Below, piece after piece: positions 1-28,483 of a stretch of DNA of 38,571 nucleotides. The stretch's first letter is position 1. Every line of letters begins with the position of its first letter. This stretch comes from a virus. Made by a program: the position numbers and the translations under genes. Location: the IMG/VR virus record IMGVR_UViG_3300033049_000176, positions 1 through 38,571 of that record; one strand, written 5' to 3'. The notes under the pieces are model-generated. The model was given only the letters and a program-made list of their open reading frames with translations. It did not search any database and was not told the origin of the DNA.

Positions 1-1
1 T

Positions 2-325
2 TTACTCACTTGCCCTCAAAAAATCATCGCGCCTTGCATATAACACCACAGCAACACCAATCAAAGCCGCCACGAGTGCAATAACCACGACCCCGGCCAA
101 CACAGATGGTAGCCAACTCACTTGCCCTGACAGGGCATATACGCGGTCTATGGCCATTGCAGTGCCAGCAGTGGCAATGCCGCCGCCCGCCAACCCGCCG
201 CCGCGCATTGTACGCGATTGGCTTAACCGTCCACGTTCACGACGGACGGGCGCGGGGCTTATACTTTCTCGCGGCGCAGTTTTCTGCAAATAAACCTCGC
301 CAAACAATGACAATCGACAGCCCAA
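2..325 (-). CDS. Small membrane protein, holin-like (start uncertain)
   Basis: The reading frame gives 107 residues from a TTG codon; the first ATG would leave 68. The N-terminal part is basic and polar, followed by a glycine/alanine-rich stretch (about residues 40-57) and one strong membrane segment (about 72-97) ending in a charged tail with Arg-Arg-Asp-Asp. I recall this layout (SQSRTMRGGG-type motif, then one C-terminal membrane helix) in holin-like proteins and endolysin tails of alphaproteobacterial phages, so a lysis role is plausible but unproven. It points the same way as the lysis cassette further right but is separated from it by the divergent acr-aca-like operon. No good ribosome binding site precedes either start. 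It ends two bases from the window edge, so it may be the last gene of the phage. Confidence 0.5.
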   Translation of the reverse strand: MGCRLSLFGEVYLQKTAPRESISPAPVRRERGRLSQSRTMRGGGLAGGGIATAGTAMAIDRVYALSGQVSWLPSVLAGVVVIALVAALIGVAVVLYARRDDFLRASE

Positions 326-455
326 TGGATGCGGTTTGAAATGAAAATGGGGAAAGCATGGACAAACAAATCAAAACCAAAATGCTTTCAGTGCCAAACC
401 CCTGGTTATGTGAATTGAAAAAAAAAGAGGGGTGTAAAAAAAGGGAACTATATAC

Positions 456-486
456 TTGACTTGTCCCAAAATCGGGACTATATAAT
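456..486 (+). promoter_or_regulatory. Promoter with internal inverted-repeat operator, putative acr-aca promoter
   Basis: A TTGACT -35 box (456-461) is followed by TATATA at 479-484 (17-base spacer) or TATAAT at 481-486 (19-base spacer). The spacer holds a perfect 5-bp inverted repeat, GTCCC (463-467) and GGGAC (474-478), separated by AAAATC. A dimeric HTH protein bound there would block RNA polymerase. The gene two places downstream encodes such a protein, so autoregulation is the simple reading. Confidence 0.7.
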
Positions 487-519
487 AGGTAAGAGAGACG
501 GGGTTTGCCCGCTCCAGTC

Positions 520-952
520 AGGAGACATAAAAATGAGTAAAACAACTTGGGTACCGCCGTTCGCAGGTGAGGAAGCAGCATGGATGAATAAAATGATAGA
601 AGAAAGGTTAGAAAGGCACGAAAAAGTCGCTATCACTAGCGCGGATAGCCACACAACCACTGGGTGGTTGCTAAAGGCATTTACCCCAGAAACACTATGG
701 TTGTACCCGGGCATTGGGCCACGGCTGGCGGCCATACTACTAAGGGGCAAACTATTTGACTACCCGTTTTACGGGGAACCCCGCGACATGCTGGTTAGGG
801 ACGCCCTAACCAGCATAAACCCAGACTGGAGGTACCGGTTTGCGGTTTCTCTAGAAAAGAGAGTTAAATTGATACGCCTGAACCACACCTGTTACGCTTC
901 AGACGTAAGAGAGAAGGTAGCGGCCATTATGGCAGGAGAAGATAATATATGA
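520..952 (+). CDS. Unknown protein, candidate anti-CRISPR (first gene of HTH-regulated operon)
   Basis: The start is the ATG at 533, because AGGAGA at 520-525 sits at the right distance; the frame is open further up to a TTG at 461, but that lies inside the promoter. The 139-residue product has no signal peptide, membrane segment or motif I recognise. It is mixed acidic/basic and rich in Trp, Tyr and Arg, with predicted helices around residues 12-28 and 120-136. Its stop overlaps the ATG of the next gene by four bases (ATGA). The anti-CRISPR suggestion rests only on context: small, unrecognised, AT-richer than its surroundings, transcribed against the late operon, and followed by an Aca2-like regulator under an inverted-repeat promoter. 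Toxin-antitoxin or another anti-defence role is equally open. Confidence 0.6.
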
Positions 953-1356
953 AAAAAGCATTTTACCAAACGGTGGCGCGAACCCTTAGCTTGTCCCCCT
1001 GTGACATAGCCGAGATCGGAGGGTGGAGAGATGATAGTTTTGCCCGTCGAATTATGCGTGGCAGTGCTAACTTCCCTCAAGATGTTAAATCTGCACTCTT
1101 AGACTTACAGGGTGATGTTGACGCGATTGCGGACATCTTGGTAAGCCAATGTTTAGATGGATACGAATGTGGGATTTTTGTTTTTAAAACTAATAAACAA
1201 TTGCGGGATAATTTCCCTAACCTTCCATGTCGCGGGGATGCTAACGGCGGGTTTGTGGGCGTTTACAATGTGGCGGCAATAAAGGCTAAAGATATTTTAT
1301 TACGGAAATACGGGATTAAAGTGGATATTTTGTTTTTTCACATACAAACAAATTGA
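949..1356 (+). CDS. HTH protein resembling Aca2-type anti-CRISPR-associated regulator
   Basis: This 135-residue protein starts at an ATG overlapping the previous stop. The first ~55 residues look like a helix-turn-helix in which 'LSLSPCDIAEI' forms the first helices and 'DSFARRIMRGSANFP' the recognition part. A helical linker (DVKSALLDLQGDVDAI) follows, then an alpha/beta C-terminal part. From memory this matches the Aca2/DUF1870-like pattern: HTH, 'VPxDVxxxLLDL', then a ~60-residue dimerisation domain beginning with a short beta strand and ending near 'AALYY..G..DLI', here 'AAIKAKDILLRKYGIKVDILFF'. Aca proteins repress their own acr operon through inverted repeats, and one lies in this promoter. 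Alternatives are an antitoxin or a generic XRE regulator. The similarity is recalled, not computed. Confidence 0.55.
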   Translation: MKKAFYQTVARTLSLSPCDIAEIGGWRDDSFARRIMRGSANFPQDVKSALLDLQGDVDAIADILVSQCLDGYECGIFVFKTNKQLRDNFPNLPCRGDANGGFVGVYNVAAIKAKDILLRKYGIKVDILFFHIQTN

Positions 1357-1407
1357 ATTTATTGTAAGGCCCGCGTTTTGAATTCAGGTGAACGCACTTA
1401 TTGAACA

Positions 1408-1752
1408 TCAAAACAACCCAAACCGTTTTTTCTTGACTACCTCATCTATTACAAGCACATCCGTTATAGTTGCACCTTGCACCTCCAGCACGTTTTTCAC
1501 CTCAAGTAACTGCAGTCGGCAATCTTCCCCTGCACTTTGAAGCCGGGTGATATATACCGCTATTTGTGCGTCTGATCTATTTTCGCTAGCGGGCACAATA
1601 GGCTCTACCGTACACTTAAACTGCCCGTTAGTTAGGATTATTGGCCTGTTTACGGCTTTGTTTGTTGAGCAACTGCTCAAGAGCAATGCGGATAGGCTCA
1701 CTATTAGCACACTGATTACTGTCCTGGGCCTGGATAATGGCTTGTTCTGCAT
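1408..1752 (-). CDS. Outer-membrane lipoprotein spanin (Rz1-like o-spanin)
   Basis: The 114-residue product begins with basic residues, a hydrophobic stretch (about 11-26) and a lipobox ending in LLSSC, so it should be lipid-modified at Cys28 and exported. The first 125 bases overlap the end of the i-spanin gene in another frame, the classic Rz/Rz1 arrangement. Spanin pairs fuse inner and outer membranes in the last step of lysis. It is longer than phage lambda Rz1 and is not proline-rich. It is the last gene of the lysis block and converges on the Aca-like gene with about 50 bases between them; no clear terminator is visible there. Confidence 0.75.
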   Translation of the reverse strand: MQNKPLSRPRTVISVLIVSLSALLLSSCSTNKAVNRPIILTNGQFKCTVEPIVPASENRSDAQIAVYITRLQSAGEDCRLQLLEVKNVLEVQGATITDVLVIDEVVKKKRFGLF

Positions 1753-1984
1753 TGTTTAAATCCTCTCTGGCTTGCGATTTGCGCTCACCTTGGCGGGCTT
1801 GACTGGCGATTGTGCCGTCTTTGGCCAACGAAGCGGCTTTAACTTCTTCGATTTCATTTTTAAGCCGCTTATTGGCTTTCATGGTCATATCGTATTTGAG
1901 ATATACGCCGCCAATAATAGCAAAAAGCACAACATAAAAAACTGTCGATCCACCGCCAAAAAATGCTTTTACTAAAGCTTTCAC
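1628..1984 (-). CDS. Inner-membrane spanin (Rz-like i-spanin)
   Basis: I start this at the GTG at 1984, one base after the TGA of the lysozyme gene, so translation is probably coupled; the frame stays open upstream inside the lysozyme gene. The 118-residue product has one N-terminal membrane segment (about residues 13-29), then a long charged helical part with coiled-coil character (KANKRLKNEIEEVKAASLAK and onward). That topology, and the o-spanin gene overlapping its 3' end, fit an Rz-type i-spanin: anchored in the inner membrane, spanning the periplasm and pairing with the lipoprotein. Confidence 0.75.
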   Translation of the reverse strand: MKALVKAFFGGGSTVFYVVLFAIIGGVYLKYDMTMKANKRLKNEIEEVKAASLAKDGTIASQARQGERKSQAREDLNNAEQAIIQAQDSNQCANSEPIRIALEQLLNKQSRKQANNPN

Positions 1985-1985
1985 G

Positions 1986-2780
1986 TCACAAACCCCGTAA
2001 GCAATATTCGCGCTCTTGCGATCTACGCCGGACAAGCCCGCGTACAACGCGCCCGCCAGCCCGCGTCCACCATGCAATGGCTTTACACGCACCTATTATG
2101 TCACCTTTATTAAGTCGCCGTGTGGCAGTAGACTTCCCGGCACTACGAATGCCAATATTATACGCCAATGAGACAAAGGCGTCGGCGCGCATGACTGTGA
2201 GGCGTTCGCGCTTGGTTTGCGCGGTGAAATAGACATAAAGCCCATCTCGGTATTCGGCAATTTCTTTGAGTAACAATTTCTTGCATACTTCATCTGTCTT
2301 GTATTGGCCCGGGCCCGCCGTGCGTGTGTGACCAAAGCAGACCGTCCAACGAGGAGGTTTTGCAATAGTGTCCAAATAACTAACATTCCAAATAGCCGTT
2401 ATGCCTTTATAGTTGGCAAGTTTTTTATTTTCTCCCTCCCAACCAGAAATGAGTGTGAAAGCGACATCATCAAAATCAGGCTTTGGCTTTTCATGAGCCA
2501 AAGCGGGCCAAGCCATAGTAATTATTGCAACAAGCGCACCTATAATAATAATCCTGCGCCGCCAACGGGTTTCAAACTTCTGAACAATCAAACGACCAAA
2601 CACGGTAAATACGGCCGCAATAATTTGGAGCACACTCACAACCCACGGCGTAACATCAATCTCGGACACTAAATAAATAACATCCGGTGCAAACGTGAGA
2701 AATATAAACGCATATGCCCCCCACATAGAATATCCAGTGATGGCCAGTTTCTTCCAATCATCTACAAAGCATTTCATCAT
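1986..2780 (-). CDS. Endolysin: N-terminal holin-like membrane domain fused to GH24 lysozyme
   Basis: The 264-residue protein cleaves the glycan of peptidoglycan. Residues about 103-264 match the phage lysozyme (GH24) pattern: SGWEG with the general acid at Glu115, then YLDTIAKPP with Asp137, and WTVCFGHT with Thr152, followed later by SLAYNIGIRS, STATRRLN and the AGGRVVRGLVRRR-type end. In this subfamily YLDT usually follows soon after WEG, so about ten extra residues seem inserted between Glu115 and Asp137. Residues 77-95 form a hydrophobic segment like a signal-anchor. Residues 13-66 hold two more membrane segments (about 19-38 and 45-65) resembling small alphaproteobacterial phage holins. 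A GGAG-type ribosome site precedes the ATG. Confidence 0.85.
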   Translation of the reverse strand: MMKCFVDDWKKLAITGYSMWGAYAFIFLTFAPDVIYLVSEIDVTPWVVSVLQIIAAVFTVFGRLIVQKFETRWRRRIIIIGALVAIITMAWPALAHEKPKPDFDDVAFTLISGWEGENKKLANYKGITAIWNVSYLDTIAKPPRWTVCFGHTRTAGPGQYKTDEVCKKLLLKEIAEYRDGLYVYFTAQTKRERLTVMRADAFVSLAYNIGIRSAGKSTATRRLNKGDIIGACKAIAWWTRAGGRVVRGLVRRRSQEREYCLRGL

Positions 2781-2792
2781 TTCATCTCTCCT

Positions 2793-3047
2793 CTATTTAT
2801 GGGGAAACCCGAAACCTTTAAAGATAGCCGCACCAATGCCTAAAACAGCGGCGGTAACTACCACCATTAAAATCTTGTTTTGAATGCCTTTGGTGGTTTT
2901 TCGGAGATCACGGGTAAAGACCAAATCAGCGCGCAACTCGTTAATGCTGCCCTGCTTTGTCGTATCGACGCCAAGCTTGCCAAATACTTGCTGTACTGCC
3001 GATGTGGCGGCTCGCTCTGCGATTTCACGCATTTCTTTATCTGTCAT
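2793..3047 (-). CDS. Small single-span membrane protein of the lysis region
   Basis: The ATG at 3047 is chosen because GAGGGG lies just upstream and the tailspike gene ends next to it; a longer frame runs into the tailspike gene. The 84-residue product has a charged, helical N-terminal two thirds (TDKEMREIAERAATSAVQQVF, then INELRADLVFTRDLRKT), followed by one membrane segment (about residues 58-77) and a short basic tail. I recall similar small proteins next to phage lysis genes, some listed as DUF6127-like, with no proven function. It could be an accessory holin or antiholin. Confidence 0.65.
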   Translation of the reverse strand: MTDKEMREIAERAATSAVQQVFGKLGVDTTKQGSINELRADLVFTRDLRKTTKGIQNKILMVVVTAAVLGIGAAIFKGFGFPHK

Positions 3048-3048
3048 A

Positions 3049-5571
3049 TTACCCCTCAACCACGCGAGCAATCCAAGTGAAAGCCCCGCTTTCCAAACCG
3101 CTTTCGTTGTAAATGAGATAAACCCCGTTCGATGAATTATGCACGAGCGGTTCTTCGGCATTAATCGCACCGCCAATCCGCTTATATTCAGCAACCCCGC
3201 CCAAGGTTTTCTGACACCAGAAATACTGGTTTAATGTCCCCTCAGCATTTCCAGCCTTGACGATTTCGCGGGTAACGGCGACACCTGCCGACCAGTTCGT
3301 ACCGTCATATGTGCTAATTCCCGACTCGCCCGCAAAGGCGCTCGCACCTGGGGTGAGAATAAAGCACGTATCACCATTTGCGGGTGTAGGTACATCAGCA
3401 CTGTCCGCAAAAGCAAAATCAACATCTGTGACCGTCGTTGTAATTGTCGGGCTGGCAGATAAATCCCAATCCCATTTTCTCGATGTCGTGGTATTTGGCG
3501 CGGTGAGTGTGATTGTGTCGTAAATACTGGTGTTGTGCGTCCCTATACCTGTTGGCGGCGTTCTAATTGCGCTTTCGCCTTTGGATATGCGGATATGCCC
3601 TATATGCACGGTTCCCGTGCACTGGTTGAGCGAGATTGCCAGCGTTGCCGCGTAACCGTACCCGGTCACAAATTCAAATTCTATCTCTTCATATCCAGCA
3701 GTAACCTGATATTTTCTAGCATATCCGGCTACATTTGATCCAGATGAATAATCATCAGAAGTGCCGTTAAGAATACCAGAAGTGTCATTCTGCCGGGTTT
3801 CGTGATCAATAGAAATCCCGTGATTAACATTACCCGATCCGCCGTTTAACACCAATTCCGTCTGGATTTGATACCGGATATGCGCGGTGTATCTTGTAAA
3901 GGGTCGTACTGAAAACGGTTCAGTGGTTAAACTAGGGCGATTGTTGCCTGTTCTGTAACCCTCCGCGTAAAGTTCAACTTTCGTAGCCGCACCGTTTAGT
4001 GTATTGTTGGCGGTGCGGGCCGCTATATCATTCGCACCTCCAATGCCCTGCAAGGTGTGTACATTACCATTTTGCAAAGTCGGGTCATGCATGAGATTGC
4101 ACGGCCCCAAATTCCGCCAAGGCACAATTCTAACGCCCGCATCATAGGCCGCTTGGCAAATGGCTCTAAAATCTGATGCAGAAACATATGGGGTTGTCCC
4201 CGCATCAGCAACATCCGCATCCTCTGGCGTGAAATGCCCATAGATAATCCCGGTATCTGTACCGGATAAACTACGGACATATGATAAAATTTTCTGCAAA
4301 CGCGCCGGGTCATTATTAGGGTCACATGTGAGCGCCGTCCAGTGCATGGGTTTTGGCCCGTCCACATCTGTAGAATATAAATGGTCACCGCTAAACCCTA
4401 AAGTGCCGTTGATAGAACGGACTTTATCGTATGTGTAATAGTATGCCAAATCAGACGTAGCGCTTCTAAAGCCACCGCGATAAACCGCCCCTGCTACTGG
4501 GTAATTGGCATATTCAGGATGGGTTATTGTCCCGTCAATGATATTCTGCCCCGACACTCTTTTTTCCCCCGTCATAAGCTGCCGTAGCAGCAAGTTTTCT
4601 GCCTGTGCATCTGCGACCATTACTGACTCAGTTGCCGCCAAATCCGGCAAGGCCGCATGATTGACGATCTCGCATCCGTATTTTTCGACCAATGTCCGCA
4701 AATCTTGTGCCGTTAAAACGGGCTGTCCAGAAATGCCCGCATAATTACCTTTACCAACTCTTTCAACCTCCACACCAACAGTAAATGCATGACCAAATTC
4801 AGCCGCAATAGACGCGGCCACGGTAAGGTTGTTTTGATAACCATCGTCGAACATCAAAACCAACGTTGGGCCAGGTGGAGCTTCCCGCGTATATTCGGGC
4901 GTGTCACGGGTGAACAACCGACCAAGACTATCAACAATTCTGTCATAGCCATTATCATCAGCAGCCACATACCCCGCAGTGTCGTCCGTACTGAACGTAC
5001 CTTGATAGCCATCACCCACCGACACACCCCCGCGCAGATGTGCATATATCACATCCGCATCCGCCAAAGCTCGTAAATGCACGTAGGTCTCAAATACATC
5101 ACCTTTGCCGGACATGGTAATAACTGACTTGGCCCCCACAAGCCCAAATTCATTTTCTGCCGTTCCCATCAATATCTTCCCGCTAACATCTTGACCATAA
5201 GGCAATTCAAACGCCACCTGTCCCGGCGGAGCCATGAGTGTGCGGCCAAAATTATCGTCATGCTCCTGGGCAATATAGGTAAGCCGGTCAAGCTGGGCTT
5301 CTATGGTTGCGCCGGGTAATTTCTTTAAATCATTAAAATCTCCGGTCTGCCCGATAACCGTATCGCGCAAGACACTGATTTTGGCACCGGACGCGGGCGC
5401 ACTGGCAAGCTGGATTTGTTTTTTGTCTGTGGACAATGTAGCGGTCGGATCAAGCACCCCGCCGACATAAACCAAAACACCGTCAAGGGCCGGATACGGC
5501 AGATCGCCAAACACTGTGGCGACACCGTCCCCGTCAAATTCGACCAATACAGGTGTGACGACAACCGTCAT
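3049..5571 (-). CDS. Tail fibre/tailspike with polysaccharide deacetylase (NodB-like) domain
   Basis: This 840-residue protein is probably the receptor-binding appendage. Residues 1 to about 110 look like a virion-anchoring N-terminus of the T7 tail-fibre kind (DFNDLKKLPGATIEAQLDRL). Residues about 235-490 carry a NodB-homology polysaccharide deacetylase domain: LVLMFDDG at 237-244 (catalytic and metal Asp), EIVNH at 301-305, and a later IYGHF motif. The usual second metal His four residues after His305 is replaced by Pro309. The remainder has beta-rich, carbohydrate-binding-like segments (about 520-660) and a C-terminal DUF2793-like part. Such enzymes remove acetyl groups from host surface polysaccharide. 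It has its own promoter-like element upstream (5602-5652). Confidence 0.85.
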   Translation of the reverse strand: MTVVVTPVLVEFDGDGVATVFGDLPYPALDGVLVYVGGVLDPTATLSTDKKQIQLASAPASGAKISVLRDTVIGQTGDFNDLKKLPGATIEAQLDRLTYIAQEHDDNFGRTLMAPPGQVAFELPYGQDVSGKILMGTAENEFGLVGAKSVITMSGKGDVFETYVHLRALADADVIYAHLRGGVSVGDGYQGTFSTDDTAGYVAADDNGYDRIVDSLGRLFTRDTPEYTREAPPGPTLVLMFDDGYQNNLTVAASIAAEFGHAFTVGVEVERVGKGNYAGISGQPVLTAQDLRTLVEKYGCEIVNHAALPDLAATESVMVADAQAENLLLRQLMTGEKRVSGQNIIDGTITHPEYANYPVAGAVYRGGFRSATSDLAYYYTYDKVRSINGTLGFSGDHLYSTDVDGPKPMHWTALTCDPNNDPARLQKILSYVRSLSGTDTGIIYGHFTPEDADVADAGTTPYVSASDFRAICQAAYDAGVRIVPWRNLGPCNLMHDPTLQNGNVHTLQGIGGANDIAARTANNTLNGAATKVELYAEGYRTGNNRPSLTTEPFSVRPFTRYTAHIRYQIQTELVLNGGSGNVNHGISIDHETRQNDTSGILNGTSDDYSSGSNVAGYARKYQVTAGYEEIEFEFVTGYGYAATLAISLNQCTGTVHIGHIRISKGESAIRTPPTGIGTHNTSIYDTITLTAPNTTTSRKWDWDLSASPTITTTVTDVDFAFADSADVPTPANGDTCFILTPGASAFAGESGISTYDGTNWSAGVAVTREIVKAGNAEGTLNQYFWCQKTLGGVAEYKRIGGAINAEEPLVHNSSNGVYLIYNESGLESGAFTWIARVVEG

Positions 5572-5601
5572 AACAAATCACTTCCTGGCTGGTGGATGTC
5601 A

Positions 5602-5660
5602 TCTATAACACAGTCCCGGATTGAGCCGCCATTACACCAACATTGGTGTAATGGGAACCA
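5602..5660 (-). promoter_or_regulatory. Late promoter element A upstream of the tailspike
   Basis: Read on the - strand, a palindrome with 10-bp arms and a 2-base centre (5631-5652, core ACCAA-TG-TTGGT) lies 28 bases upstream of a TATAGA -10 box (5602-5607). The same core, flanks and distance recur upstream of the small terminase. There is no good -35 box, so an activator bound at the palindrome (centre about -46) is likely. The expected transcript start leaves about 24 bases before the tailspike ATG. Confidence 0.55.
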
Positions 5661-5669
5661 AAACGAAGC

Positions 5670-8213
5670 TTACGAACCGGACGGCGGAATGATATATCTT
5701 TGCCCCCGTTCCCGCTCCATCCGCTTTTCCATCCGCTCCAGTGAGCCTGGATTGACCCATTCCTGCATCTGAAATAAAACCAGATAATCAAGCGCGGCCT
5801 GCGTATAGAATAAATTGGCGAACGGCGTATGTCCTTTGGCAAACCGCAACGCCTTTGGCCCGACCCTGTCCTCGGTAAACAACGCCCGTGTCATGCCTGC
5901 AAACTCCGTCATGCTACCCGCCGTAGGCCCAAGGGCAGTATCCAAAAACCCGCCGCCGTAGCGGTTATAATCCGCAAAGAAAAAGTCCCCGTATATCCCG
6001 CCGCCGCCGCCTTGCAAAAACGCGGCCATCACGGTCTCGCCTGACATCTCCCTAAGTGTTTTCCCTTTGGCCAATTGCTTGGACTGCATGGCAAAATACC
6101 CCAGGATTGTCGCACCAACAATCATATGAGCCACCGATGCCATAGAATTAAGCCCTGCCGTCCCCTTAAAGCCCGGAATAATTTGCTGGGTCAAAACCGT
6201 CAAAGGAAACGATTTAAACTGCAACATGGTTTCAACAAGCGCACCCCAAACTGTACCTTTCTTGGAGCCAAACCGCAACAGCGCCCGCTCCCGTGCCTTT
6301 GGCTCGGTCATAGCCCGGTCGGCAATATCATTGTAAAACATCCCGAACCGCAATTCCGCTTCCCGCGCAATCGCAGGCCCATTGGTCAAACCTTGCGCCT
6401 TGCCCCATGCCGCCAATTTCTCCGCCGGGGTACGCCCAACCATATCCGGTGTCAAAAGCCGCCCCATATCCAGACCGTCCACATCCGAAGCCGAACCGCG
6501 CACCGCCTGCCACAAGGTTTTATCAATCCCGTAACTCTCAAATGTCGCACGGGTTTCGGCAGGCAATCGCCCCCAGCTCTTATCCGCCATTGTCCCGATA
6601 AATTTACCCAAGCTGGCCCCAACACCATTACGGATCCCGGTTTGCCAAAAATTAAACAGATTGACCTTGTAAAATGATGTGCTTGCCCGGTTCAAAACCC
6701 CGCCCGCACCGTCACTGGCTGCATATCTTTGGATTTGCGCCCCGGCGATCACCCGCACATTCACCCCCAGCAACTCGCCAACCTCGCGCCGCACCGACCC
6801 CTCCAGCCGCGATAGACCGCCGAATAATGATGAATAGCCATTCAGCAAAGGCACCCCGGCCCGCCGCAAAGTCTGCGCCGCAAACGTATTATCACCCATA
6901 GACGACAAAGTCATGCCGCCAAGCTTGGATACAACCTGCAAGGTTTTGACAGCATTGACAAATGTGGACAACCGGACATTTTCAGTAGAACTGGCCACCC
7001 CGGTAATCTGGTCAAATTCCGCTTGACGGCGATTGAAATGCAAAACACTTTCCACCCGGTCAAAACTCTTGGCATTGCCGCGAATGCCCGCCAACATGGC
7101 TTCAAATTTTGCTTGCGGATTAGGGCCGTAAACCCGCATCAATTCGGTATTTCGCGCCGCCAAATCCAGTTGCCGCACAATATTTTCAATCACCGTACCC
7201 TTGGAATAGGCCTGCTTATACGTCCACGCATCGGCGGCAGACTTGAAGTGCAACACCCGTTCTTGCGATACCCGCCGCGCCAGTGAAGCCTTGCCCACAC
7301 TTGGAGCCACATCTTTAAGCGCACCGTCCAAAGCCGTACCGTTCACCCGCTCATGATTACCTGTAATGATATTGGCCCAAACATTATCCAAAAAAGCGGT
7401 ACGGTCTTTAACCCCGGCAAATGTCCGCTCATGTAAAAGCGGCAAGATCGTATCGCGCCACTGCTTTTGTGCGGCCTTGCGCCGGGCCTGGGAATTGGCT
7501 TTACGGTTCGGGTTCAGCACATTTAGATCAGTCCCCTTGAAAAACCCGCCTGCCACCTTGAGCATATCGTGATCTTGCGCGGTGACATATCCGTCAATCT
7601 TGCCAATAAACGCCCCCACTTCATTTTGCGACAATCGCGCCCGCTCCAAATACGGAGCCAGAATTTCAGCGATTTTTACCGCGTCCTTATTCCCGGTTGG
7701 CGCGTCCGAACCGTTATTGATCCGCGATATTTCAATAAAGATATCCCGGCCCAATGCATCATCAGCCCGCCGAAACGCTTTTTGCTTCAACAAAGGCATA
7801 ACCCCGGCCTCTTCCAAGTCCGTAAACATCCCCTGTAACCAGCCCCGGTGCAACTCCCGCGACCTTTGGTCAAGTCCGCCCTGGTTTCCGGCCCGGTCAA
7901 GCCCGGTGCCCACATTCATCGCCTGTAATCTTTGTGTATCGCTCTGGGCGTCAAGCCCGTTCCACCGGACACCCCGCTCCACATCGGCCCGCTTGTCATG
8001 GGCCGCCATATGCTTACGCACCGCAAATTCTTTAAGCTCCTCGACCGTCATTTCGTCGATAATCTCGGTGATCGAGCGGCTGGTATCCGCGCCGGGCTTG
8101 TCCATCCGGGCGCGGGCTTTCTTGGCCACATCATCAACAATGCGCTCTACATCCGCCGCGTCGAATACATCTCCGGCAAATTTAACAAATTGGTCGCGGC
8201 AAGCCTTGGTCAT
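5670..8213 (-). CDS. Large internal virion protein
   Basis: The 847-residue product begins with an acidic helical region (FVKFAGDVFDAADVERIVDDV) and is mainly helical, alanine-rich and basic. Hydrophobic stretches occur around residues 540-560 and 690-720 (MASVAHMIVGATILGYF). The C-terminal ~60 residues (PFANLFYTQAALDYLVLFQMQEW followed by a run of Glu/Arg/Met) recur, as I remember, at the end of large internal core proteins in many alphaproteobacterial podoviruses. Size and position next to two other very large proteins fit the T7 gp15/gp16 group, which is ejected into the host to conduct DNA across the envelope. I see no lytic transglycosylase motif. The start overlaps the upstream 71-residue gene by 32 bases. 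Confidence 0.7.
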   Translation of the reverse strand: MTKACRDQFVKFAGDVFDAADVERIVDDVAKKARARMDKPGADTSRSITEIIDEMTVEELKEFAVRKHMAAHDKRADVERGVRWNGLDAQSDTQRLQAMNVGTGLDRAGNQGGLDQRSRELHRGWLQGMFTDLEEAGVMPLLKQKAFRRADDALGRDIFIEISRINNGSDAPTGNKDAVKIAEILAPYLERARLSQNEVGAFIGKIDGYVTAQDHDMLKVAGGFFKGTDLNVLNPNRKANSQARRKAAQKQWRDTILPLLHERTFAGVKDRTAFLDNVWANIITGNHERVNGTALDGALKDVAPSVGKASLARRVSQERVLHFKSAADAWTYKQAYSKGTVIENIVRQLDLAARNTELMRVYGPNPQAKFEAMLAGIRGNAKSFDRVESVLHFNRRQAEFDQITGVASSTENVRLSTFVNAVKTLQVVSKLGGMTLSSMGDNTFAAQTLRRAGVPLLNGYSSLFGGLSRLEGSVRREVGELLGVNVRVIAGAQIQRYAASDGAGGVLNRASTSFYKVNLFNFWQTGIRNGVGASLGKFIGTMADKSWGRLPAETRATFESYGIDKTLWQAVRGSASDVDGLDMGRLLTPDMVGRTPAEKLAAWGKAQGLTNGPAIAREAELRFGMFYNDIADRAMTEPKARERALLRFGSKKGTVWGALVETMLQFKSFPLTVLTQQIIPGFKGTAGLNSMASVAHMIVGATILGYFAMQSKQLAKGKTLREMSGETVMAAFLQGGGGGIYGDFFFADYNRYGGGFLDTALGPTAGSMTEFAGMTRALFTEDRVGPKALRFAKGHTPFANLFYTQAALDYLVLFQMQEWVNPGSLERMEKRMERERGQRYIIPPSGS

Positions 8214-8397
8214 GGAGTTGCTCCAGACTGTCCTTGATATCCGACAATTGCGCCCGTGCGATCTCCCGGTATGTCCTGTCGGGCAATGCCGTCAAGTCCG
8301 CCATATCGGCCAGATCGCCAACCATCTCGTCCAGATCGTCCAGCACCTGCGCCACGCCCTCGTAGCGCTTGATGATCACAATCTTGCCCCGGCTCAC
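8182..8397 (-). CDS. Small helical phage protein, unknown
   Basis: The GTG at 8397 overlaps the TGA of the preceding gene (GTGA), so a coupled 71-residue product is the best reading; the frame remains open further upstream. After a short strand-like start (KIVIIKRYEG) it is strongly acidic and helical (VLDDLDEMVGDLADMADLT, then YREIARAQLSDIKDSLEQL). I do not recognise a family. Its place between the structural genes suggests a small virion or assembly factor produced in step with the large internal protein, which it overlaps. Confidence 0.6.
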   Translation of the reverse strand: MSRGKIVIIKRYEGVAQVLDDLDEMVGDLADMADLTALPDRTYREIARAQLSDIKDSLEQLHDQGLPRPIC

Positions 8398-8582
8398 AAC
8401 GCGGGCTTGAACGGAGCCAACTCCCAACCGTGGCGGACAAGCGGGCGGATAAGTGTCCGAAAATCTGCATCCCCCATACACGTCTCGTCCAGCGTAATAA
8501 TCGCCCCCAGAATAAACCGGCATTCTTCAAATGATAGATTATTGCTGTCGTATTTCTGCATTGATATTGTGGCCTCACCCAT
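8394..8582 (-). CDS. Small phage protein, unknown
   Basis: This 62-residue gene is preceded by a strong AAGGAGG ribosome site at the correct spacing. The product has a central hydrophobic helix (ECRFILGAIITLDETC) and ends in a tryptophan-containing tail. No family recognised. It begins a cluster of three coupled genes that ends with the large internal virion protein. It is separated from the upstream genes by the structured 259-base region with a terminator, so it probably relies on read-through or on a promoter in that region. Confidence 0.65.
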   Translation of the reverse strand: MGEATISMQKYDSNNLSFEECRFILGAIITLDETCMGDADFRTLIRPLVRHGWELAPFKPAL

Positions 8583-8650
8583 GAGAACCTCCTTGTGTTA
8601 GGCCGCCACACCAGTGCTGGTAAACACTGGTGGGCGGACGAATGACACGG

Positions 8651-8778
8651 TACCAGACCGAATAACCTACACAAGGCGTCAGCTAAACGGCAGAGCCTAA
8701 GCCCTCCGTGTAAACGCCCGCCCATAAAAAAACCACGCAATCGTGGCGTGGGGAACGCCTTGTGTACTAGGTCTGGTA
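8651..8778. repeat. 128-bp element with nested terminal inverted repeats
   Basis: Outer arms TACCAGACC (8651-8659) and GGTCTGGTA (8770-8778) enclose a second perfect pair, TACACAAGGCGT (8668-8679) and ACGCCTTGTGTA (8755-8766). The inside holds a rho-independent terminator for the - strand (8726-8751). The geometry resembles terminal inverted repeats of a miniature transposable element, or a large cruciform or RNA structure. No clear target-site duplication flanks it. Confidence 0.6.
8726..8751 (-). terminator. Rho-independent terminator
   Basis: On the - strand, stem CCACGC (8751-8746) pairs with GCGTGG (8738-8733) and is followed directly by seven T residues (8732-8726). It would stop or attenuate late transcription between the small membrane genes and the internal virion protein cluster. 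Confidence 0.8.
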
Positions 8779-8828
8779 AACCCGTGACGCGACTATTGCC
8801 ACGCCCCGCATCCCTAAACCTGCATTTT

Positions 8829-9081
8829 ACAAATGTCAAGCCTAGCTGAAAATACTGATTATTGCCCAAATGACGGCGAACAAAACAAATAATTTGATTG
8901 CACCCTCTACCAACATACCAGCAATTAAAGCGCCATATGCTTTCAATCTTTCTCCAGGTGGATGCAATTTCGCGGCGGATTGCGCCCGCATATTTATTGA
9001 GACCAACCAGATAAAGACAACAATACCAACTATATTTGCAAACATATCTAACTCCCAAAACAAATGTCAAGCCTAGCTGAA
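8829..9081. repeat. 22-bp direct repeat at the 3' ends of two tandem membrane-protein genes
   Basis: The identical sequences at 8829-8850 and 9060-9081 are 231 bases apart. On the - strand each spells the last codons, the TAG stop and the following TTGACATTTGT. A copy of TTGACA, a perfect -35 box, thus follows each gene, but no good -10 box lies 16-18 bases beyond either. Confidence 0.8.
8842..9045 (-). CDS. Small two-span membrane protein (tandem copy 2)
   Basis: The ATG at 9045 is preferred because GGGAG precedes it; two more upstream codons could be used. The 67-residue product has an N-terminal membrane segment (about residues 3-18), a basic polar loop (NMRAQSAAKLHPPGERLK) and a second long membrane region (about 40-66), ending in Ile-Phe-Ser. 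Its last codons and the following bases are identical over 22 bp to the end of the neighbouring gene, so the two may be diverged tandem duplicates. A holin-like or superinfection-exclusion role is possible, but nothing in the sequence decides it. Confidence 0.6.
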   Translation of the reverse strand: MFANIVGIVVFIWLVSINMRAQSAAKLHPPGERLKAYGALIAGMLVEGAIKLFVLFAVIWAIISIFS

Positions 9082-9282
9082 CAGACTGCCAATAAAGCTT
9101 AAAAATAGATACAACATAAATATAGAAAAAGCCCCCCATAACGCCATTGTGGCGAACGCCACAAAAAACATAGCAAGTCTTCCTTTTGTCTTGTCCGCTT
9201 CGTCTTGCGCAATCCGCCATGCCAGAATGGCACTGCCGATTATATCTATGACTATCGCTATTTTGGCTAATGTTAGTAACAT
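9073..9282 (-). CDS. Small two-span membrane protein (tandem copy 1)
   Basis: The start ATG has a strong GGAGG site that overlaps the end of the 865-residue gene upstream. The 69-residue product shows two membrane helices (about residues 3-22 and 37-66) around a charged loop (RIAQDEADKTKGR) and ends in Leu-Phe-Ser. Topology and 3' end match the next gene (see the 22-bp repeat). No family recognised. The position between internal virion proteins suggests a membrane function during infection or lysis. Confidence 0.6.
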   Translation of the reverse strand: MLLTLAKIAIVIDIIGSAILAWRIAQDEADKTKGRLAMFFVAFATMALWGAFSIFMLYLFLSFIGSLFS

Positions 9283-9297
9283 ATTTACCTCCTAAAT

Positions 9298-11895
9298 TCA
9301 TGATCCACCGCCTTTCACTACACAAATTACCGCCGCCCGTAAACCTTTCTTAAATGCGGTTAATTTCTCCGGGTCATATTCGGCCACAAGATCCGCCAAC
9401 ACACCCTCGTCCAGCATCCCGCCCTCGACCAGGTTCTCAATCTCGCCCGCAAGAACGGCGTTCTCCGCCTCAATTTCAGAAAGTTCATCGAATCGCTTAG
9501 GGTCATTCGTGACCCCGTCGGCCACGCCAGTTTTCTTGGCTAGTTCAGTACTGTCCCGTCCGGCGGCGTCCGGGGTTCCCCCTGGGCTTTCAGGATCGCC
9601 TTGTCGCGCTGAAACGCCTGATTGCCTGCCAGTTTCGGCTCGGACATCTCCAACGCCTTGGCCATCGCCAGCCCCACCTTGACGTGGCGCGGTACCTGGT
9701 GCGGCGCGGATATCGGCAAATCCCTCCGGGACGTCTTGCCCGGTGATTTGCGTAAGGATATCTTTTGGTCTTTGCGCCGGGGCATCACTCTCTCCAAGTT
9801 TATTGGCTCCAAACAAATTTGGCCCGCCTTTAGTGGTCAGGGCAATATCTATATACGCATTTAGCCGCGTTTGTACAGCTTCTTTAGACAAGGCCTTGAT
9901 TAAGGGATTACCCTTGCTGTCCGGCCCGTAAAACATATTCAGCATCATCCGCTCGGTCGCGCCCCGCGCCTCGCCAAACAAATCACCATTGGTTTCCGCT
10001 TCCAACTCGGCCAATGTCACCTTTTCGCCCTTGGCTTTAATATCGCGCATCCGGCGAATTAACGTAACCGCATTCAAAAGTTCCTGGGTGATATCCATAT
10101 CCCCGTCAATATCGCCCTTTTTGGCCAAAGCCCGCATATTGGCCCATTTGGGCGCAATCTCCACCAAAGCCGTGTTTATGGCCCGCGCCCCCGGAGACGT
10201 ACTTTCCAAAATATCGGTCAACAAATACGGATCATCATAAGCCTTGGCCGCCAATGCCGCCTTAACCCGCCTAAGCCCGTCCGCCGAGATCGCCCCGGAT
10301 TTATCAATCAGCTTAGGCAAATCACTGGCACTGGATATTGTGTTCAAAATCCCGGTGACAAAATCCCGATTGCCCGCACTGGACAATTCGCCTTTAAGCT
10401 CCACATCCAAAACACTATCATCAAGCCTGTCCCCGTCGATCCTGGCCCGCTCGGTCACGGCAAAATCCGCCTTGCCGTCCTCATTGGCGTCTTGGCCAAA
10501 TTTCACCCGCTCTTCCGGTGTACGCTCCCCTTGGGCAATCCGCACCAATACGGGCGCGTCCATATCGCCTACAGGATAGCCCTGGGCGGCCAAATACTCC
10601 TGATAGGACTTCCACCCCCCAAGACCATCGCTCCTTGCCATCCTAAGCGCCAGTGTCCGCCCATTGCCGCTTTCCACCACCCCGTCCGGCGCAATAACCG
10701 GCGCACCATCACTGGCCAGCGGGTTTTCGCCCAAAAGTTCCGGTTTCAATTTGGCCGCTATTTCCCGGACTTGCGCCTGATACGCCCCGCTTGAACGGTC
10801 ACGGGGTTGCAAAACGCTCGGATATTGCTGATTGACCATAAACCCGGACCTATGGGACGTGATCAAATCGTCAAGCTCGACCAAAGCATATTCAACATAG
10901 GTCTCGCCGCCTTTTGCGTCATAGGCAATATCAGCCTTGATTGCCCGCGCTCGGATTGCGGGGCCAGTCTCGCCCAATTGTGCATTCATCCGGCCCAACC
11001 GCCCAGCTTCCAAAACATCCGCCGCCGTCACAGGCTCGCCGTTTGCCACCTGCTTGACCGCACTCCTAAATGCCGCCTGCTTGGTCGCGTCCGGCACATC
11101 CGGCCCGGCCACCAAATCCGCCCCCGGACGCGGCACGATATCATTGCCGTCAATCCCCAAATTCTCTGTCACGGGACTGGTCAAGGCCAAGTCACGGGAC
11201 GCGCCGGTAGCACCATCCGTGGCCGCCAGCTCCGCCCGGTGTTTTCCGCCCAAATCCGCACCCCGCGCCAACGCACCCAGCCCAGACGATAACACCAATG
11301 TCAGCATCATATCTTCCGCGCCGTAATCCCGCTTCTCGCCGTATATGGCGAGGGGCATAATCACCAATTCTTGCGACAACCCGGCGGCAAAGCCCTCCGC
11401 CGCACCGACCCCCATCCTGCGCCCCAAAGTCATGGCCTTGCCGCCCGCCCGCGCAATATGCGCCGCCTTGATAGACGTCCCCACATAAGGCACAAATGCC
11501 ACCGCGTCCCCGATCGGGTCAATTAAAGACGCCGCCAAAGACACCGCCAGATTTTCAAACATCCCGGTATTACCCGCTTCGATAATAGAGCCGCGCACCA
11601 ATTCGCGTTGTTTGATCTCGTAAAGTTGCTTGGCATGATCGGCATATACAGGCTTGTCAAACGCCAACAAACCATCAACCCCGAACTGGTCATTGGCCGT
11701 ACCGATGTCCAACAAATCTCCGGCAGTCCCGGTCAGTGCCCCCAATTTCCGCCCAGCCGCCCTCCAGACAAACCCGGTCACACTTTCCTCAATCGCCTGC
11801 CCGGCCAAAGCGCCGTAAACATCCAAACGGCCCGTAGAAAAATCACCCATTTTAAGAACAACAGGGTCAAATTCAAAAGCCTGTTGGCGGATCAC
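9298..11895 (-). CDS. Internal virion protein with DdrB/ParB-like domain
   Basis: The 865-residue protein starts at a GTG overlapping the previous stop (GTGA). Residues about 1-215 are alanine/glycine-rich and helical, with hydrophobic stretches typical of ejected core proteins. Residues about 335-560 match my memory of the DdrB-like ParB superfamily domain found in phage 'polyvalent' proteins: ITSH, then YPSVLQPRDRS, QVREIAAKLKPELLGENPL, ASDGAPVIAPDGVVESGNGR. The region after about 690 is low-complexity and polar, with a Gly/Gln/Asp-rich linker and an acidic helical end. ParB-like domains bind CTP or cut DNA in other settings. Being carried in the virion, this one may act on incoming or host DNA. 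Confidence 0.75.
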   Translation of the reverse strand: MIRQQAFEFDPVVLKMGDFSTGRLDVYGALAGQAIEESVTGFVWRAAGRKLGALTGTAGDLLDIGTANDQFGVDGLLAFDKPVYADHAKQLYEIKQRELVRGSIIEAGNTGMFENLAVSLAASLIDPIGDAVAFVPYVGTSIKAAHIARAGGKAMTLGRRMGVGAAEGFAAGLSQELVIMPLAIYGEKRDYGAEDMMLTLVLSSGLGALARGADLGGKHRAELAATDGATGASRDLALTSPVTENLGIDGNDIVPRPGADLVAGPDVPDATKQAAFRSAVKQVANGEPVTAADVLEAGRLGRMNAQLGETGPAIRARAIKADIAYDAKGGETYVEYALVELDDLITSHRSGFMVNQQYPSVLQPRDRSSGAYQAQVREIAAKLKPELLGENPLASDGAPVIAPDGVVESGNGRTLALRMARSDGLGGWKSYQEYLAAQGYPVGDMDAPVLVRIAQGERTPEERVKFGQDANEDGKADFAVTERARIDGDRLDDSVLDVELKGELSSAGNRDFVTGILNTISSASDLPKLIDKSGAISADGLRRVKAALAAKAYDDPYLLTDILESTSPGARAINTALVEIAPKWANMRALAKKGDIDGDMDITQELLNAVTLIRRMRDIKAKGEKVTLAELEAETNGDLFGEARGATERMMLNMFYGPDSKGNPLIKALSKEAVQTRLNAYIDIALTTKGGPNLFGANKLGESDAPAQRPKDILTQITGQDVPEGFADIRAAPGTAPRQGGAGDGQGVGDVRAETGRQSGVSARQGDPESPGGTPDAAGRDSTELAKKTGVADGVTNDPKRFDELSEIEAENAVLAGEIENLVEGGMLDEGVLADLVAEYDPEKLTAFKKGLRAAVICVVKGGGS

Positions 11896-14213
11896 GGCCC
11901 AATCTCCAACGGTGAAGCTTCAGCCAAAGACAAAGGCGGACGCGCCATACCTCTTAATTTGTCTTCAGGGGTTCCAATGCCAGGCGCGAGCATTCTGTCT
12001 TGCCGGCGCACCGCCCATTTCCCCATTTCAATCAACTCATCAGGCCGGTATTCAATAATCCGCTCTTGCATATCCGGGACGGGACTTATCTGACCATTAT
12101 CCATAACAACCAACCGCATTTTTTCAGTACCGTCACCTGATATGACATTTATCCACTTCCCGGAACCCCGAACCTTGGCGGCCAATTCAGCCCGCTGGCT
12201 ATCCGCATTCCCCAATGGATTGCCGTAATTACCACTTAAACCCGTGTCATATTGCAAGGCCAACGCATCCATGCCCGCCGCCACCAGTTTTTCCCCGGAG
12301 ATATTTTTCGTATCGGTTCTAAGCTCCAGCCTGTGTTTTTGCAGACCCTCGCTAGCATTCATCCGCCAACTGCCATTAAACACATAGCCCCGCCCCATAG
12401 CCTCCGCCGCCAACCGCCGCGCATCTGGCACGTCTTCGCCCTGGGAAACATATTGCATCGCCAAAGCAATGTGCGCTTTTTTGTAAGACCCGATATCCCG
12501 CGCCGACTGCGGCGAAAACCGCATCGTGTCCAACAGATCGGAAATATCGTCGGCGGTTTTCTCCACAATGGTTTTATAATCGTCCTTATCGACAATCTTC
12601 TTAATCTCTTTTTGGTTGACCAAAGCCCGCGCCAATGACCCGGAAGCCAGATAATTGCGGTCTGTAAAATCAATCACAACTTCAAACCCGTCCGGCAAGC
12701 CGCCAAGCTTTAATTCCTCCAATGCGCTGGGCGAATATTTGCCGTATGTTTGTTGAAACGAGGCGGCGGCGTCCCGGATACTTTGATCATCGCCCTGCGT
12801 AAGCGCAGTATTCCACTGCTCATTCTGTCCTTTGCTCATCACCCGGCGATCAACATCCGCAATCCCCATATCCGCTTGCGCTTGTTGGCTCAATGCCAGT
12901 GCCGCGTCCCGGTCGGTCTTCACCCGCGCCTGAGCATCAATCTCGGTTTCGCCCTCTTGCGGCTCCGCCGCTTCAGGAGAAAACGCCGCCGCAAAGATAT
13001 CCGCAAAACCCTCTTCTTGCGCCGCGAACGCCGACGGGTCTTTGGCGCGGGCTTTTTGAACATCGGCAATTTGTCTGTCAAATACCTGCAACGCCGCCTG
13101 TTGGTTTGCATAATTATCAGACCCCGGTACAGGTATGAGAGTTTTACGCCGCGCCGCCCACTCGCTTGGCCCGGCAAATTCCATACCCCGGAAATTCTCA
13201 AACATTTTCCCGGCTTGTTTGTCTTGCGTTAAAAATTTCATGGCAGCAACTTCGCCGTATATAGCCCGAACGGTTTTATAGTTCACATCGGGATTGCCAA
13301 CCCCGTCCCTGGACAGACTGGCCAAATGGCTTTCCAACTTTGGCCCAAAAATGGCACGGTCAATTTTGTTTTTTGCGGCAAGCTGCTTCTCGATCTTGTC
13401 CGCCGCGATTTTTTCATTGCGTTCTTTCTCGTCCTTGGCCCGTTTATTATCAATCTTGCGGGTTTTAAGCTCGCGCCTATTGGCCGCCATCGCCGCCGAC
13501 TTGACCTGCGGGCTAAGAAGCTCGTCCAGCAAACCCTCTTTAAGTTCTTTTTTAAGCCGATCCGGGTCAAGCTGGTTCAAACCATCCACATAAGCCTGGC
13601 CGTAACTCTCCTGAAGTTCGGTTTTATATTTATCCCGCAAAGCTTCCGGCACCGCCGCCAGCAGGACATCAATCTCCTCAAGCGCCGGGGTCAGTTGCGC
13701 CGGATCGGAAATAATCTGGTTGCGCACCGTATCCGTAGTATTGGCGAGTTCTGAATAGGCCCGCGCCCGCCGCCCTAAAACTTCCTTGCCCCTGGCATCA
13801 ATCCTAAGTGCCGAAGATGTACTCAACAATTGCCGTTCAACAATCGCCCGTATGTCCTTGTCGTCAATCCCGGCCAGGACCGCATCCATATCGGCGGCCA
13901 TATCGTCCGCGAACGGTTGGGAAAACTCACTTTCGCCGTCATATGCCGCCGCCCGCTCCAACAATGTCCGGGTTGACCGCTCCCGAAACCCGGACGTATA
14001 TTTAACCACAGCAACGCCGCGAAGCCTTGCCTTTTCCTCGTCCAGCTCCCGTTCCTGAAATTGCGCAATCCGGCCAAGACCCTGACCAATAGACCCCAGC
14101 GCATTGCCCAAGGCACCCGCACCAACCCCGCCGCCGCCGGACATCGGCAAGCGTTCACGCGACGGCGCTGAGGTTCCGGGATTACTGGCTGGGCCGTCAA
14201 GTCTTACCGCCAT
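11892..14213 (-). CDS. Internal virion protein (gp15-like by position)
   Basis: The 773-residue product starts with a glycine-rich stretch (MSGGGGVGAGALGNAL, about 24-39). It continues as a long, highly charged helical protein: ERELDEEKARLRG near 53, and a Lys/Glu-rich coiled-coil region about 250-290 (ELKTRKIDNKRAKDEKERNEK). No enzyme motif is visible. The N-terminal pattern 'IGQGLGRIAQFQERELDEEKARL' recurs, as I recall, in internal core proteins of T7-like virion modules. Its start lies 17 bases inside the gp14-like gene and its end overlaps the DdrB-domain gene, so the three large core proteins are translationally linked. Confidence 0.7.
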   Translation of the reverse strand: MAVRLDGPASNPGTSAPSRERLPMSGGGGVGAGALGNALGSIGQGLGRIAQFQERELDEEKARLRGVAVVKYTSGFRERSTRTLLERAAAYDGESEFSQPFADDMAADMDAVLAGIDDKDIRAIVERQLLSTSSALRIDARGKEVLGRRARAYSELANTTDTVRNQIISDPAQLTPALEEIDVLLAAVPEALRDKYKTELQESYGQAYVDGLNQLDPDRLKKELKEGLLDELLSPQVKSAAMAANRRELKTRKIDNKRAKDEKERNEKIAADKIEKQLAAKNKIDRAIFGPKLESHLASLSRDGVGNPDVNYKTVRAIYGEVAAMKFLTQDKQAGKMFENFRGMEFAGPSEWAARRKTLIPVPGSDNYANQQAALQVFDRQIADVQKARAKDPSAFAAQEEGFADIFAAAFSPEAAEPQEGETEIDAQARVKTDRDAALALSQQAQADMGIADVDRRVMSKGQNEQWNTALTQGDDQSIRDAAASFQQTYGKYSPSALEELKLGGLPDGFEVVIDFTDRNYLASGSLARALVNQKEIKKIVDKDDYKTIVEKTADDISDLLDTMRFSPQSARDIGSYKKAHIALAMQYVSQGEDVPDARRLAAEAMGRGYVFNGSWRMNASEGLQKHRLELRTDTKNISGEKLVAAGMDALALQYDTGLSGNYGNPLGNADSQRAELAAKVRGSGKWINVISGDGTEKMRLVVMDNGQISPVPDMQERIIEYRPDELIEMGKWAVRRQDRMLAPGIGTPEDKLRGMARPPLSLAEASPLEIGP

Positions 14214-19294: not shown

Positions 19295-19411
19295 TTTGGA
19301 AACTCCTTGGTTGTCCAGTTAAAATTTATAAAATTTCAGCTAAACTCCCCGGAGCATTCCGGACTTGCGCCTGACATTTAAGCCTATGTCACAGCAACTA
19401 TCAGTACAGAC

Positions 19412-19442
19412 CCTATATCAGGACTACCTGCACATCAGTTAA
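19412..19442 (-). promoter_or_regulatory. Possible capsid promoter
   Basis: On the - strand TTAACT (19442-19437) is followed after 18 bases by ATATAG (19418-19413), about 115 bases upstream of the capsid ATG and just downstream of a terminator. The bases TCAGTTAACCA on the + strand also occur at the promoter upstream of the small terminase. The -35 box is weak. Confidence 0.35.
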
Positions 19443-19495
19443 CCACGAATCATTCACATTTTTTTGCGACCGTCAAGATGTTTTGGAATAAAAAC

Positions 19496-19576
19496 AAAAA
19501 AAATCCGGCCCGTGTGATCTGAAAAATAGGCCAGCTAAAGGATTTTCACCCAATACTGGCTTCTCACACAGGCCGG
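19496..19576 (-). terminator. Long-arm rho-independent terminator with inner hairpin
   Basis: On the - strand CCGGCCTGTGTG (19576-19565) pairs with CACACGGGCCGG (19516-19505) with one mismatch and is followed by a run of eight T (19503-19496). The large loop contains a second stem (GCCAG 19560-19556 with CTGGC 19534-19530). The 5' arm belongs to a tandem 13-bp repeat (19565-19596), so two alternative 5' arms exist. Confidence 0.65.
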
Positions 19577-19637
19577 ACACACAGGCCGGACACACATGTA
19601 GACCGGGGGTGTTTGACATCGTCCCCGGTGGCATGCG

Positions 19638-20414
19638 CTATGCTGGTTTTTTGGGCGCAGTTTTTTTATCAGGCTTGGGCTTATCTGGCTGGGTCGCCGT
19701 CTCCAAATCCTTATGAGCCGTTTCCAGATCGGCCCTCAAACTGTCAATTTCATCATTTAATTTCGAAAGCTCGTCCGAAAACACAACTGCACCCGCTCGC
19801 TCGGCGTCAAGTTTAACTTTCAACTCGTCCCGTTCTTTGGCCATGGTTTCCAGCTCTGGGCTTTCTTTCCCGCCGCCTGCTTTCAGCTTTTTATTTTCAG
19901 CCGCTAACAAACCGATTTGATCGCGAAGCTCCTGCACCTGCTCACTGTCCTCGGCAAGCGGTTCATCTTCCGTGATCAATTTCCAACCCTGATCAGTCGC
20001 CACATATTGCACCACTTGCATTGGCCCAATCATGATTTCACCAACAGATTTTTTATGGCCAATTTTGGCGAAAACACCCTCGGCATGGGCTTGCTTGACT
20101 GTTTCAACCAAGACACCAATATCGCTTGGAATTTTATTATTTAACTTTTTGTTCTCGCAAACAAGAAGCCCCAAATTATCGGGATTACCGCTCTGGCCCG
20201 CAACAATAAGAGGATCACAATTATAAAGCCGGATACCGTCCAAGGGCAAAAACGCCCGAACAGCGATAATATCTCCGATACCCATTTTCTCGTCCGCGAT
20301 CAGATCAGAAAGGGCCTGGTCATCAAGCGGGTGATGCATTGGTTTAAACCCAGTGTTGCCAAAGAAAATAGCAGAAACACCCGCCGCCAATAGTTTAGTA
20401 TGAAAGTTTTGCAT
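19638..20414 (-). CDS. Head-region coiled-coil protein, unknown
   Basis: The 258-residue product lies between scaffold and capsid genes and has a GGAG ribosome site. Its first ~140 residues are a mixed alpha/beta domain I do not recognise (DEKMGIGDIIAVRAFLPLDG, then SVGEIMIGPMQVVQYVATDQGW). Residues about 150-235 form a clear coiled coil (EQVQELRDQIGLLAAENKKLK and LNDEIDSLRADLETAHKDLE). The end is a Lys/Pro tail (PDKPKPDKKTAPKKPA) that could bind DNA. It may be a head-inside or second scaffolding protein; the function is not decided by the sequence. Confidence 0.65.
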   Translation of the reverse strand: MQNFHTKLLAAGVSAIFFGNTGFKPMHHPLDDQALSDLIADEKMGIGDIIAVRAFLPLDGIRLYNCDPLIVAGQSGNPDNLGLLVCENKKLNNKIPSDIGVLVETVKQAHAEGVFAKIGHKKSVGEIMIGPMQVVQYVATDQGWKLITEDEPLAEDSEQVQELRDQIGLLAAENKKLKAGGGKESPELETMAKERDELKVKLDAERAGAVVFSDELSKLNDEIDSLRADLETAHKDLETATQPDKPKPDKKTAPKKPA

Positions 20415-20439
20415 GTTTATCTCCTGTTATGCAAATTAT

Positions 20440-20466
20440 CCCGGACGTAATTATTGCCCGTCCGGG
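20440..20466 (-). terminator. Hairpin attenuator overlapping the scaffold stop codon
   Basis: CCCGGACG (20466-20459 on the - strand) pairs perfectly with CGTCCGGG (20447-20440); the loop contains the scaffold TAA. It is followed by ATAATTTGC rather than a full T run, so partial termination or mRNA 3'-end protection is more likely than full termination. Confidence 0.45.
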
Positions 20467-21290: not shown

Positions 21291-21291
21291 G

Positions 21292-21579
21292 TTAATCTCC
21301 TGTTTCTGGGGTTTGTGTTGAATTAGGTTTAAAAGCTGTCAGCGGATCAATGCCCGCTAAATTCATTAAATCTATCATGGCACTGCGCCGACCTTCGAAC
21401 ATGCCCCGTTCAAATGTGTCATAACCACTGCCGATTTTTTGGGTGATTTCACCGACGCCGCAAATCCGGGCATAGGCCAGCACCGCTTGCGCGGCTTGAG
21501 TGCCGGGGCCAAAGGCGGATTTGATTAAATCCACCTGCTCTTTGCTCGTCTTTGGGGTTGAAACTTTATGATGGTTCAT
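21292..21579 (-). CDS. Bbp19-like small head-region protein
   Basis: The 95-residue product has a basic polar start and a central pattern 'VLAYARICGVGEI...FERGMFEGRRSAMIDLMNLAGI'. This resembles the Bbp19 family of small podovirus proteins encoded between portal and scaffold. Its role is not established; position suggests head assembly. The start overlaps the portal stop (ATGA), so it is probably made in proportion to portal, and its TAA is next to the scaffold start. Confidence 0.7.
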   Translation of the reverse strand: MNHHKVSTPKTSKEQVDLIKSAFGPGTQAAQAVLAYARICGVGEITQKIGSGYDTFERGMFEGRRSAMIDLMNLAGIDPLTAFKPNSTQTPETGD

Positions 21580-23491: not shown

Positions 23492-23500
23492 AATTTTCTC

Positions 23501-25045: not shown

Positions 25046-25096
25046 GACGGTTCCGCCTAAAGGTAATTGGCTTTGGCCAAGCTGATTTAACACGCC

Positions 25097-25271: not shown

Positions 25272-25286
25272 TGCTGACGTGCGCGA

Positions 25287-25315: not shown

Positions 25316-25345
25316 CTTGTGAAAAGTTTCAATGTTATCAAACTT

Positions 25346-26046: not shown

Positions 26047-26057
26047 AACAATTAAAA

Positions 26058-28481: not shown

Positions 28482-28483
28482 AC

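Follow-up and report, generated by a model that had tools for sequence, protein, structure and literature searches.

A two-gene unit with a distant Aca2-like regulator and a tandem-hairpin leader in the lysis cassette of a podovirus-like phage

One of the main routes to new anti-CRISPRs is guilt by association with aca genes, and its reach is limited to the known Aca models. What, then, is a small two-gene unit that runs against the late genes of its phage, and is it an anti-CRISPR operon with an Aca2-like regulator, as an initial annotation had proposed? The window analysed here, a 38.6-kb virus record taken at its full length, is that of a podovirus-like phage encoding internal virion proteins, a head-tail adaptor, a terminase and a CI-like repressor. 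Nearly every gene lies on the - strand and, given its CI-like repressor, the phage is probably temperate. The two-gene unit sits inside the lysis cassette at the left end of the window, antiparallel to the late operon, and - strand late/lysis genes flank it on either side, which bears out the orientation first described.

533-952, + strand: P0001, 139 aa, ATG start, Shine-Dalgarno AGGAG just upstream, orphan
949-1356, + strand: P0002, 135 aa, Aca2-like HTH regulator, putative autorepressor
2-325: small membrane protein of the lysis cassette
1408-1752: Rz1-like gene of the lysis cassette
1628-2092: Rz-like gene of the lysis cassette
1986-2780: lysozyme of the lysis cassette

Both genes are real. 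They overlap by ATGA, each has a Shine-Dalgarno site and codon usage prefers their sense frames over the antisense and +1 frames, in accordance with the overlapping + strand pair of the initial annotation; P0002 as a gene is further backed by a homologue, 45% identical, from a second phage. The pair had also been called AT-richer than its surroundings, a description that holds for the second gene (GC 0.425) but not for the first (0.493) or for the entire operon (0.458); the right flank stands at 0.457 and the genome at 0.508. The coding sequence of P0001 contains one further element, an inverted repeat with no T-run at either side.

788-816, + strand: perfect stem of 13 bp with a 3-nt loop (RNA -22.1 kcal/mol, z -7.7)

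Elsewhere in the window, perfect hairpins of 12 and 13 bp (5629-5654 and 25287-25315) stand between main - strand genes and are possible terminators. The stretch 26000-27000 is an AT-rich island (GC 0.35-0.37). It has a promoter-like start (TTGACA, near 26549), motifs of the GTAAGGAATT type in repeated copies and, on the + strand at 26612-26941, a gene that matches phrog_9437; the island is possibly an origin of replication or another accessory module. Two DNA methyltransferase-like genes at 27789-29155, one of the C5-cytosine type (PF00145, half of the model covered) and one of the D12-class adenine type, possibly act in anti-restriction. Positions 1-13259 of an IMG/VR contig (L003) are 99.8% identical to 19346-32537 of the window, and this contig stops short of the operon.

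What kind of protein is P0002? Pfam, NCBIfam, PHROGs and PADLOC contain no model that matches it, and the HTH that the initial annotation had assigned to the second gene, undetected by every HMM library, is visible only through distant profile comparison. PF08965 (Aca2_YdiL) gives no match at E<=1 or E<=10, and P0002 is therefore not placed in that family. By tblastn, P0002 has one relative (E 4e-24), which is 45% identical over 95%: Rhks_57 of Rhodovulum phage vB_RhkS_P1 (KX077179). Beyond this phage, no relatives of P0002 or Rhks_57 were found in viral_contigs, genome_contigs and plasmids. A profile of these two proteins was compared with an alignment of seven Aca2/YdiL proteins, consisting of Aca2 from Pectobacterium phage ZF40, two viral-contig proteins, two Pasteurella phage proteins, one of Streptomyces phage Gilgamesh and E. 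coli YdiL. We find that hhalign pairs the two profiles with a probability of 80% (P 1.4e-5) over 81 columns, residues 3-84, in near-perfect register and reaching past the HTH. Likewise, when an Aca2 HMM is run on 1,821 ORFs, Rhks_57 (E 0.009) and P0002 (E 0.04) rank directly below the true members, and the best non-self match of the P0002+Rhks_57 profile among 1,082 single ORFs is ZF40 Aca2, whose similarity spans 65-81 columns. Searched against all PDB chains, Rhks_57 retrieves seven sequences at E<10, five of them Aca2 (three constructs) or Aca1 (two), and the pair profile aligns with Aca2 at an E of about 1, collinear over residues 10-92. Across the aligned part P0002 is ~20% identical to Aca2. 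A low-confidence model of P0002 (pLDDT 42) places helices at residues 2-12, 17-21, 30-37, 44-69, 83-88 and 108-119, an order that matches that of solved Aca2 (PMC8434428); Foldseek with this single-sequence prediction was uninformative. Each E-value is modest alone and none is decisive, and combined they all point in one direction, to a distant but specific similarity. The profile tests thus argue, with moderate strength, that P0002 and Rhks_57 are an outgroup of Aca2, and the initial view of the 135-aa protein as Aca2-like survives. P0002 resembles a distant Aca2-type regulator and probably functions as one; that it is an Aca2-like DNA-binding autorepressor we regard as very probable.

The region ahead of P0001 offers such a regulator a candidate site:

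456-486, + strand: core promoter, -35 TTGACT at 456-461 and -10 TATAAT at 481-486, 19-bp spacer
463-478: putative operator GTCCCaaaatcGGGAC, a perfect inverted repeat of 16 nt between the two hexamers
438-454, + strand: upstream near-copy AAAAAGGGAACTATATA, 82% to 468-484, i.e. the right half-site plus the -10 region (repeat search)

Both hexamers of the sigma70 promoter of the initial annotation are present; our consensus promoter scan did not list it because they are 19 bp apart and the scan took spacers of 16-18 bp. An alternative -10, TATATA at 479-484, leaves a 17-bp spacer from TTGACT. The GTCCCaaaatcGGGAC motif occurs once in the window. With 54 inverted repeats of the 5-6-5 form in 38.6 kb, the chance of meeting one within a 25-nt core promoter is a few per cent; Aca operons as a rule carry repeats in their core promoters (PMC9410906), and the acrIF8-aca2 promoter of ZF40 carries the 16-nt inverted repeat GTTCGCGATTGCGAAC, different in sequence, at the equivalent position between -35 and -10. 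GGRACTATA, the right half of the repeat plus the -10, is found in vB_RhkS_P1 too, a comparison confined to these elements by a record that stops inside the promoter. The near-copy at 438-454 is possibly a second site for the regulator.

Apart from the regulator gene, vB_RhkS_P1, a Mu-like phage, shares just short marginal matches with the window genome. There, Rhks_57 is the last gene of a short unit antiparallel to tail genes, and the genes upstream of it, Rhks_59 and Rhks_58 (173 aa and 40 aa), are not homologous to P0001. The two units are alike in the 45% identical regulator at their end and in a tandem-hairpin leader before the first gene; they differ in the type of phage, in the upstream genes and in a terminator-like repeat that vB_RhkS_P1 has between Rhks_59 and Rhks_58. 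In that record (L002 576-745) the terminator-like inverted repeat comes after Rhks_59, and Rhks_58 has a second ribosome-site hairpin, CTCAGGAGAG, ahead of it.

The leader of the window, as folded in RNA, holds two hairpins:

497-512, + strand: leader hairpin 1, G-A-CGGG-GUUUG-CCCG-C, with a bulged A and a 5-nt loop
517-526, + strand: leader hairpin 2, GUC-AGGA-GAC, whose loop contains the Shine-Dalgarno AGGA

The structure common to the window and vB_RhkS_P1 reads G-A-CGGS-5 nt-SCCG-C, then SUC-AGGA-GAS. All base pairs (8/8) are kept between the two leaders, with two two-sided (compensatory) changes, one of them in hairpin 1; coming from two leader sequences only, this covariation is without statistical force, and 121 of 500 shuffles perform equally well. 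The alignment of the two leaders scores 19.5, the best unrelated scores being 15 and 12 in ~11,000 windows each, and the combined motif of hairpin 1, spacer and AGGA-loop hairpin 2 occurs once per genome, ahead of the first gene of each unit. Competing alternative folds appear once more of the P0001 gene is included. A search of viral_contigs with the leader pattern gave no match and Rfam returned nothing; a blastn match to the leader in MT836946, which falls inside a ParA-like coding gene, was taken as chance. The leader common to these two otherwise unrelated phages is suggestive evidence for a conserved RNA structure in both. Two hairpins beside the ribosome site are likewise formed by the ZF40 leader. 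The first of these repeats an operator-like sequence a second time, whereas the leader hairpins of the window are shorter and are no copy of its operator. ZF40 Aca2 reportedly represses translation through RNA stem-loops of this kind. Leader hairpin 1 is possibly the RNA target of the regulator, and we put RNA-level control by P0002 at an even chance. An Aca2-RNA complex has been reconstructed by cryo-EM (PMC11239489).

How close does this bring the unit to systems already described? The ZF40 acrIF8-aca2 operon (NC_019522, 19220-19859) also joins a small gene to an Aca2 regulator antiparallel to holin/lysozyme neighbours. It differs in that its regulator is so distant in sequence from P0002, which lacks the PF08965 match, and in that P0001 has no known relative. 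YdiL/DUF1870 (PF08965) proteins share with P0002 a similar length, the layout of an HTH plus a C-terminal domain and similarity at the profile level; yet P0002 falls under all Pfam-model thresholds and stands second in an operon of a phage, whereas YdiL is a regulator encoded on the chromosome, with no acr. In Moraxella phage Mcat8 (L012 35-430), an unannotated Aca2-like ORF adjoins the attL end.

A question remains, what does P0001 do? No relatives of P0001, and no known Acr among them, were found in viral contigs, phages, plasmids, PDB, Pfam, NCBIfam, PADLOC or PHROGs, in agreement with the initial annotation, which had seen no similarity of the 139-aa protein to a known Acr. The HMM libraries gave no toxin, lysis, membrane or other family match, and single-sequence fold prediction was unreliable. 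The layout of acr-aca loci is present, a small unrecognisable gene directly before an HTH gene, on a mobile element and behind a repeat-bearing promoter. Given the Aca2-like control, the lysis-gene neighbourhood as in ZF40 and the occurrence of the regulator and leader with different first genes elsewhere, we judge the case for P0001 as an anti-defence protein of any kind to be evenly balanced, and an anti-CRISPR in particular to be rather unlikely. The step to a new Acr is unsupported, since P0001 has no relatives in the collections searched, its predicted fold is unreliable and most Aca2-like regulators have no adjacent known acr: in bacterial genomes a known acr lies upstream of only 35 of 1,223 (3%) Aca2-like proteins (PMC9410906).

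That count is also an argument for a different reading, in which the unit is an Aca2-like autoregulated moron and its first gene serves, for example, lysogenic conversion, superinfection exclusion or lysis timing instead of anti-defence. YdiL, which has no acr upstream, the position of the operon within the lysis cassette and the probably temperate phage with its CI-like repressor all fit such a moron, which we consider somewhat unlikely: P0001 has no match among lysis, membrane or other families, the published count would overlook acr genes of unknown families, and the unrelated first genes that accompany the regulator and leader in vB_RhkS_P1 are expected of swappable arms-race cargo.

A type II toxin-antitoxin unit of the higBA/mqsRA type, with P0001 as the toxin and P0002 as the HTH antitoxin behind it, would have the identical gene order and overlap, and the HTH of P0002 is weakly similar to those of HigA and MqsA. 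The set of 1,082 ORFs included both proteins, together with HipB, DicA and two CI proteins, and HigA ranks second in it, with a score similar to that of Aca2 and ahead of two Pasteurella Aca2-like proteins, MqsA lying lower. The likeness of HigA, however, ends at the ~38 columns of the HTH, whereas that of Aca2 continues through the long helix in register; HigA and MqsA, both aligned over the ~38-residue HTH, reach no better significance, and no toxin-antitoxin family thus fits P0002 clearly better than Aca does. Given also that P0001 matches no toxin family and that the upstream genes of vB_RhkS_P1 are unrelated to it, such a unit is very unlikely. The closeness of the HigA score, the marginal value of every single E-value and the silence of the curated PF08965 model would equally suit a generic HTH regulator whose resemblance to Aca2 is HTH-to-HTH, next to an arbitrary early gene. 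The CI, HipB and DicA controls, however, rank far below Aca2 in the same test (as does YdiL when entered as a single sequence), HTH_3-type Pfam models readily detect the CI of the window and not P0002, and the register is kept beyond the HTH; a generic regulator is accordingly a highly improbable account.

We favour, at about even confidence, a self-limiting accessory operon on the plan of acrIF8-aca2, with P0001 most likely a counter-defence protein. Host RNA polymerase would use the promoter, and P0001 would be made soon after infection, P0002 being produced through translational coupling to it. As an Aca2-like HTH dimer, P0002 would then bind the 16-nt inverted repeat (463-478) and switch transcription off; it may additionally bind the tandem leader hairpins, blocking the Shine-Dalgarno of P0001. 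P0001 would be the effector, most likely in counter-defence, with anti-CRISPR, anti-restriction and other activities as options.

P0002 and Rhks_57 stand outside the known Aca models and yet come with an Aca2-type control layout, and with a leader found in two unrelated phages. Whether they constitute a new Aca family, with a portable cassette of promoter repeat and a hairpin leader that conceals the ribosome site, and P0001 and Rhks_59/58 new families of anti-CRISPR or other anti-defence proteins, is a tentative proposal that we hold to be rather doubtful. If true, a portable cassette moves between unrelated phages and sits before different anti-defence genes, and the leader would be usable as a sequence bait for more effectors such as P0001. 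Furthermore, if P0002 binds both the DNA repeat and the leader, RNA control by Aca2-type proteins would be wider than ZF40.
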